This document shows positions 62,248 through 64,000 of a stretch of DNA of 64,000 nucleotides, one piece after another. Both the position numbers and the translations under genes were made by a program. Origin of the DNA: Tateyamaria omphalii (lineage in GTDB: Bacteria > Pseudomonadota > Alphaproteobacteria > Rhodobacterales > Rhodobacteraceae). Below the pieces are notes generated by a model. It searched no databases and was not told the origin of the DNA. It was given only the letters and a program-made list of their open reading frames with translations. Location of the stretch: positions 124,001-188,000 of the forward strand of contig NZ_BMWT01000005.1 in the NCBI RefSeq assembly GCF_014651375.1. The letters are read 5' to 3'. The first letter of the stretch is position 1. Each line of letters opens with the position of its first letter.

Positions 62248-64000
<1,753 letters not shown>

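Follow-up and report, generated by a model that had tools for sequence, protein, structure and literature searches.

A recA gene recorded without its Walker A segment in a Tateyamaria omphalii genome

The recA Locus

The stretch of DNA analysed here, hereafter the window, comprises 64,000 nucleotides of a contig of 391,141 bases (C5) from Tateyamaria omphalii, whose genome of 4.75 Mb is assembled in 22 contigs and rated 100% complete. The nearest named relatives are Tateyamaria. The window harbors recA, a LexA operator-like site upstream of it and, next to recA, a gene that we take to be alaS. A single open frame on the + strand spans 62227-63258 and would yield a RecA protein of 343 residues from its first ATG, at 62227; the more likely start is the second ATG, which encodes the residue at which the RecA proteins of the relatives that were read begin (Table 1).

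Table 1. Features of the recA locus (window positions).
Feature	Position	Strand	Remarks
recA coding sequence	62248..63258	+	336 aa when read from MATADLL, the start in relatives; 23 codons missing
recA deletion junction	62442..62443	+	69 nt gone (GGLP...GKTTLT, including Walker A); placement ambiguous by at most 1 nt
LexA operator-like site GAAC-N7-GAAC	62171..62185	+	begins 77 nt before ATG 62248

In the translation of this frame, the residues LDIALGI run straight into L-H-C-V-A-E-Q-Q at the junction. Alignment with the recA genes of 19 other genomes of the genus yielded two internal gaps, a 69-nt gap at the junction and a 3-nt gap close to the 3' end, the former preserving both frame and codon phase and corresponding to exactly 23 codons. 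The Walker A loop GPESSGKT was absent both from the frame as read directly and from the window gene in the genus alignment. The Pfam RecA model PF00154 gave two matches that are adjacent in the DNA, covering profile positions 1-46 and 70-262, and positions 47-69, hence Walker A, are missing from the protein. The claim of a preliminary description that this recA lacks its P-loop was thus borne out by direct reading, by the genus alignment and by the two-piece Pfam match, and the alignment also bore out the size, frame and position that it had given for the gap. The lost block includes the strand preceding Walker A as well, a core strand of the RecA structure.

The rest of the protein is that of an ordinary bacterial RecA, with homology to the models TIGR02012, PF00154 and PF21096 over all its remaining length. 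It scored 488.1 bits against the RecA equivalog model TIGR02012, for which the cut-off is 325.3, and the C-terminal domain PF21096 is present at residues 268-323 (92.7 bits). The segments that we take to be the catalytic Glu (in FVDAEHALD), the Walker B region and the L2 loop residues are all found in the translation, at positions that are mostly invariant in the recA alignment, and the frame contains neither a stop nor a frameshift. The integrity of the frame, of the Walker B region, of the L2 loop residues and of the C-terminal domain would be in keeping with a RecA variant retained for a role that requires no ATP binding. The difference between the window protein and bacterial RecA, namely the loss of PF00154 positions 47-69, means that it should not work as RecA.

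From established knowledge of RecA, the protein as written should be unable to bind ATP normally and should be dead, and it is probably misfolded. AlphaFold2 modelling of the shortened protein from a shallow alignment of 19 sequences gave a model of low confidence, with a mean pLDDT of 52.5 and a pTM of 0.52, and the control, the intact relative P0001 modelled with the same 19 sequences, did no better (mean pLDDT of 48.2, pTM of 0.50). In E. coli RecA, Walker A comprises residues 66-73, and the available excerpt of a study of the K72R variant, whose lesion lies in the same motif as that of the window protein, reports that this variant failed to mediate recombination in vivo (PMC5240526). According to the same excerpt K72R still binds ATP (PMC5240526), whereas the window RecA is devoid of the whole loop and its surroundings.

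Copy Number and Genomic Context

The source genome assembly carries an identical recA gene with the identical gap. The search for a second recA that had been proposed in the preliminary description found none: at E ≤ 0.001 the genome contains one PF00154 locus, consisting of the two adjacent pieces, and a degenerate nucleotide pattern that stands for the RecA-type Walker A (GPExxGKTT), which matches the recA genes of all 19 other genus genomes, had no match in it.

The neighbors of recA are the same as in the nearest relative, G011. The window is collinear with G011 and with a second relative, G004, apart from positions 6510-8367, where there is no aligned piece longer than 200 nt in either genome, and positions 48899-51165, where this is the case in G004 only. 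Fifty-four genes conserved between these two relatives were used as queries against the window, of which 42 matched, 41 of them other than recA, and the 12 without a match all lie beyond the window end. Among the 41 neighbor genes, which include alaS as cut by the window end, internal gaps amounted to 3 residues in one gene and 1 residue in another, with none elsewhere. The gene with the 3-residue gap has two stops, located in an extension ahead of its conserved part; for a stop in a second neighbor gene, the start of the open reading frame of that second gene suggests the same cause.

A generally poor assembly around recA was rejected on the grounds that none of the 41 neighbor genes has an internal gap of more than 3 residues. 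The clean neighborhood also counts against a local flaw in the sequence record and in favor of a genuine deletion, as does the position of the lesion, which lies mid-contig, within 391 kb of continuous sequence, in a 22-contig assembly rated 100% complete. Furthermore, short-read assemblers seldom join unique sequence without overlap, which similarly argues against a defect of the record.

Distribution of the Segment in the Genus and the Family

Comparison with the RecA of close relatives, a check that had also been proposed, located the 69-nt segment in all 19 other genus genomes. The segment with GPESSGKTT is likewise encoded in all 80 named loci, at least two of which appear to be contigs of the genus genomes. 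In a search in which 8000 proteins were scored, all of the 120 listed are 355-406 residues long and carry GPESSGKTT; these 120, in which clusters hide members, comprise neither the shortened RecA nor an otherwise identical full-length form.

The screen was extended to 641 distinct genomes, all of the same family and with the window genome included. Six of them were left unjudged, three with no RecA match (G078, G082, and G277) and three (G125, G386, and G397) in which only the later part of RecA was matched, starting a few bases from a contig end. Among the 635 judged genomes, the segment is lacking in one, the window genome, and present in the other 634. It was read directly in the 19 genus genomes and shown by properly spaced pieces in G143, G188, G204, G254, G305, G355, G361, G383, G394, and G346, the matches being split at contig ends in G188, G254, G361, and G394 and at a run of unknown bases in G305. 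In G468 it is there minus 2 nt (see below). For the remaining family genomes its presence was deduced from the strength of the profile match, with E-values of about 2e-137 or better, compared with 9.9e-108 for the best piece of the window gene. That none of the 634 others lacks the segment, even though one of them is frameshifted inside it (see below), favors a defect of the record, as do the 120 listed proteins, and occurrence in a single judged genome of 635 speaks against a new role for the shortened protein.

Two other recA records in the family are damaged. In G143 (locus L135, contig G143:C11, ~57720-57732), a frame-breaking gap of 46 nt falls just before and into the region that we take to be L2; with the relative L056 as a proxy for the lost sequence, the two ends of this gap have 2 nt in common. 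In the two-contig genome G468 (L163/L160, G468:C1, 2732130-2732195), a loss of 2 nt inside the P-loop codons causes a frameshift that is possibly a sequencing error. Damaged records thus number 3 in 635 with the window genome included, well under one per cent, and the window gene is the only one of them with an in-frame loss of the P-loop. Both of the other lesions may be sequence errors. They nevertheless lend some support to a genuine recent loss in the window genome, and they tell somewhat against treating its lesion as unique, whatever its cause.

Selective Constraint and Age of the Lesion

Apart from the missing block, recA is 88.2% identical in DNA sequence to that of G011, and the differences are mostly synonymous (dN 0.0117, dS 0.791, dN/dS 0.015). 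With seven of the 19 genus relatives as a sample, dN/dS ranged from 0.014 to 0.023 in the 7 pairs that include the window gene, vs. 0.000 to 0.034 in the 21 pairs among relatives. Residues 1-72 of the protein are 100% identical to those of four relatives, and a single residue, near the C terminus, is private to the window RecA by comparison with all 19. Neither the raised dN/dS nor the further lesions of a pseudogene were found. In a rough model in which the branch was taken as half of dS, a lack of constraint over 2% of the branch would lead to the expectation of about 6.2 amino-acid changes, and the probability of observing at most one is 0.015.

The low dN/dS, the single private residue and the rough model indicate that recA was functional until a very recent date, if it is not so today. 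Its loss, if any, would according to this model be confined to about 2% of the branch. The full constraint on the remaining gene is thus favorable to a defect of the record, and both the unchanged constraint and the lack of compensating changes, the latter as seen in the identity of residues 1-72 and in the sole private residue, are unfavorable to a new role.

The SOS Circuit and RecA Partners

The LexA motif of the alpha-Proteobacteria is GTTC-N7-GTTC, as stated in the available part of PMC3323433. One SOS-box-like site of the GAAC-N7-GAAC form is found upstream of recA (Table 1). Three such sites occur in the window vs. 2.04 expected, and 31 of 100 shuffled sequences reach three, so that presence alone is not above chance. 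As for position, all 19 other genus genomes have an upstream site of the LexA pattern 76-89 nt before the recA start, the distance being 76 or 77 nt in 18 of these genomes. Of the 80 named loci, 25 contained the start pattern, and each of these 25 has a LexA-pattern site within 400 nt.

The genome has also retained genes whose products are expected to need RecA. The lexA gene matches its profile over positions 3-201 of 203, and the 3.7 kb around it contain one LexA-pattern site, a few tens of bases before the matched start (0.13 expected; one site in 25 of 200 shuffles). The profile matches of recN and dprA extend over positions 1-561 of 563 and 4-220 of 220, respectively. For ImuA, no match in the window genome exceeded the cut-off, which the same model does not pass in any of 14 control genomes either. 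The retention of the upstream site and of lexA, recN, and dprA is favorable to a defect of the record.

A RecA protein that is unable to bind ATP forms no active filaments and promotes no LexA cleavage. For this reason, the SOS response would stay repressed if the lesion is real. The consequences announced in the preliminary description, i.e., no recombination, no LexA cleavage and a silent SOS response, follow from established biology in a genome with no second recA, and they stand on condition that the cells themselves carry the lesion.

Origin of the Gap

When each relative is used as a stand-in for the lost sequence, the homology at the junction amounts to 0 nt for 12 of the 19 and to 1 nt for the other 7. 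The longest word per relative shared within 15 nt of the two gap ends is 4-6 nt in length and out of register. Replication slippage between direct repeats was rejected on the basis of these values, and plain slippage therefore provides no explanation of the gap.

The preliminary description had left three readings side by side, a null allele, a protein with a new role and an artefact. The data reported above give no support to the second and speak strongly against a long-standing form of the null allele; a recent null and an artefact both survive. On balance, and with odds barely better than even, we favor a defect of the sequence record in an organism that carries an ordinary recA. The 69 nt might have dropped out of the record through a mis-closed gap, through the chimeric joining of sequences or when the file was edited; the cells would then retain an ordinary recA, the lesion being located in the record and not in them. 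Our preference stems from the near absence of homology at the gap, from its codon phase, from its being the sole such case in 635 judged genomes, and from the untouched state of the rest of the gene and of the repair system. That an in-frame gap should hit precisely the best-known motif of the protein also points to the record.

A defect of the record is only slightly likelier than a real and very recent recA null, a deletion that would have arisen in the strain or in culture and been fixed by a bottleneck, to which we give somewhat less than an even chance. Spontaneous deletions of some 70 nt do not usually look like this gap, which preserves both frame and codon phase and whose junction shows no more than 1 nt of homology. 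In a free-living bacterium with a 4.7-Mb genome, moreover, the lack of a functional recA should carry a considerable cost. Recent loss of recA has been reported elsewhere, and the available part of one report describes a Spiroplasma strain with a truncated recA whose relative has a complete one (PMC8208695). Similarly, recA is broken or lost in Calyptogena clam symbionts as in Spiroplasma while relatives are intact, a situation akin to that of the window (PMC8208695; PMC3202245). The losses described in these excerpts nevertheless concern host-associated bacteria and consist of truncation, point mutations, small indels or complete loss (PMC8208695; PMC3202245). In contrast, the window genome, at 4.7 Mb, shows a single in-frame gap with no further decay. 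Among the papers listed in the literature searches, none was recognizable as describing this allele or a natural deletion of the recA P-loop.

That the shortened RecA is kept as a variant for an ATP-independent role, for instance as a DNA- or protein-binding scaffold, appears very improbable, and the removal of a core strand implies that the fold itself should suffer. Still more improbable is the full version of this proposal, with a real gap and a P-loop-free RecA retained for such a role in a cell that has no ATPase activity of RecA, no recombination and no inducible SOS response. A gene that has long been a pseudogene, or a natural null of long standing in the species, would agree with the single recA locus but is strongly disfavored by the unchanged constraint on the sequence and by the retention of lexA, recN, and dprA, and scarcely deserves credence.

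Implications

As the RecA protein without Walker A exceeds the TIGR02012 cut-off by more than 160 bits, automatic annotation could call it normal and the flaw could go unnoticed. If the null is real, the cells would be recombination-defective and sensitive to UV and mitomycin, with LexA uncleaved and the SOS response locked off. With a genuine deletion, this Roseobacter-group isolate, deprived of a working RecA, would offer a natural experiment on how cells live in the absence of recombination and SOS.
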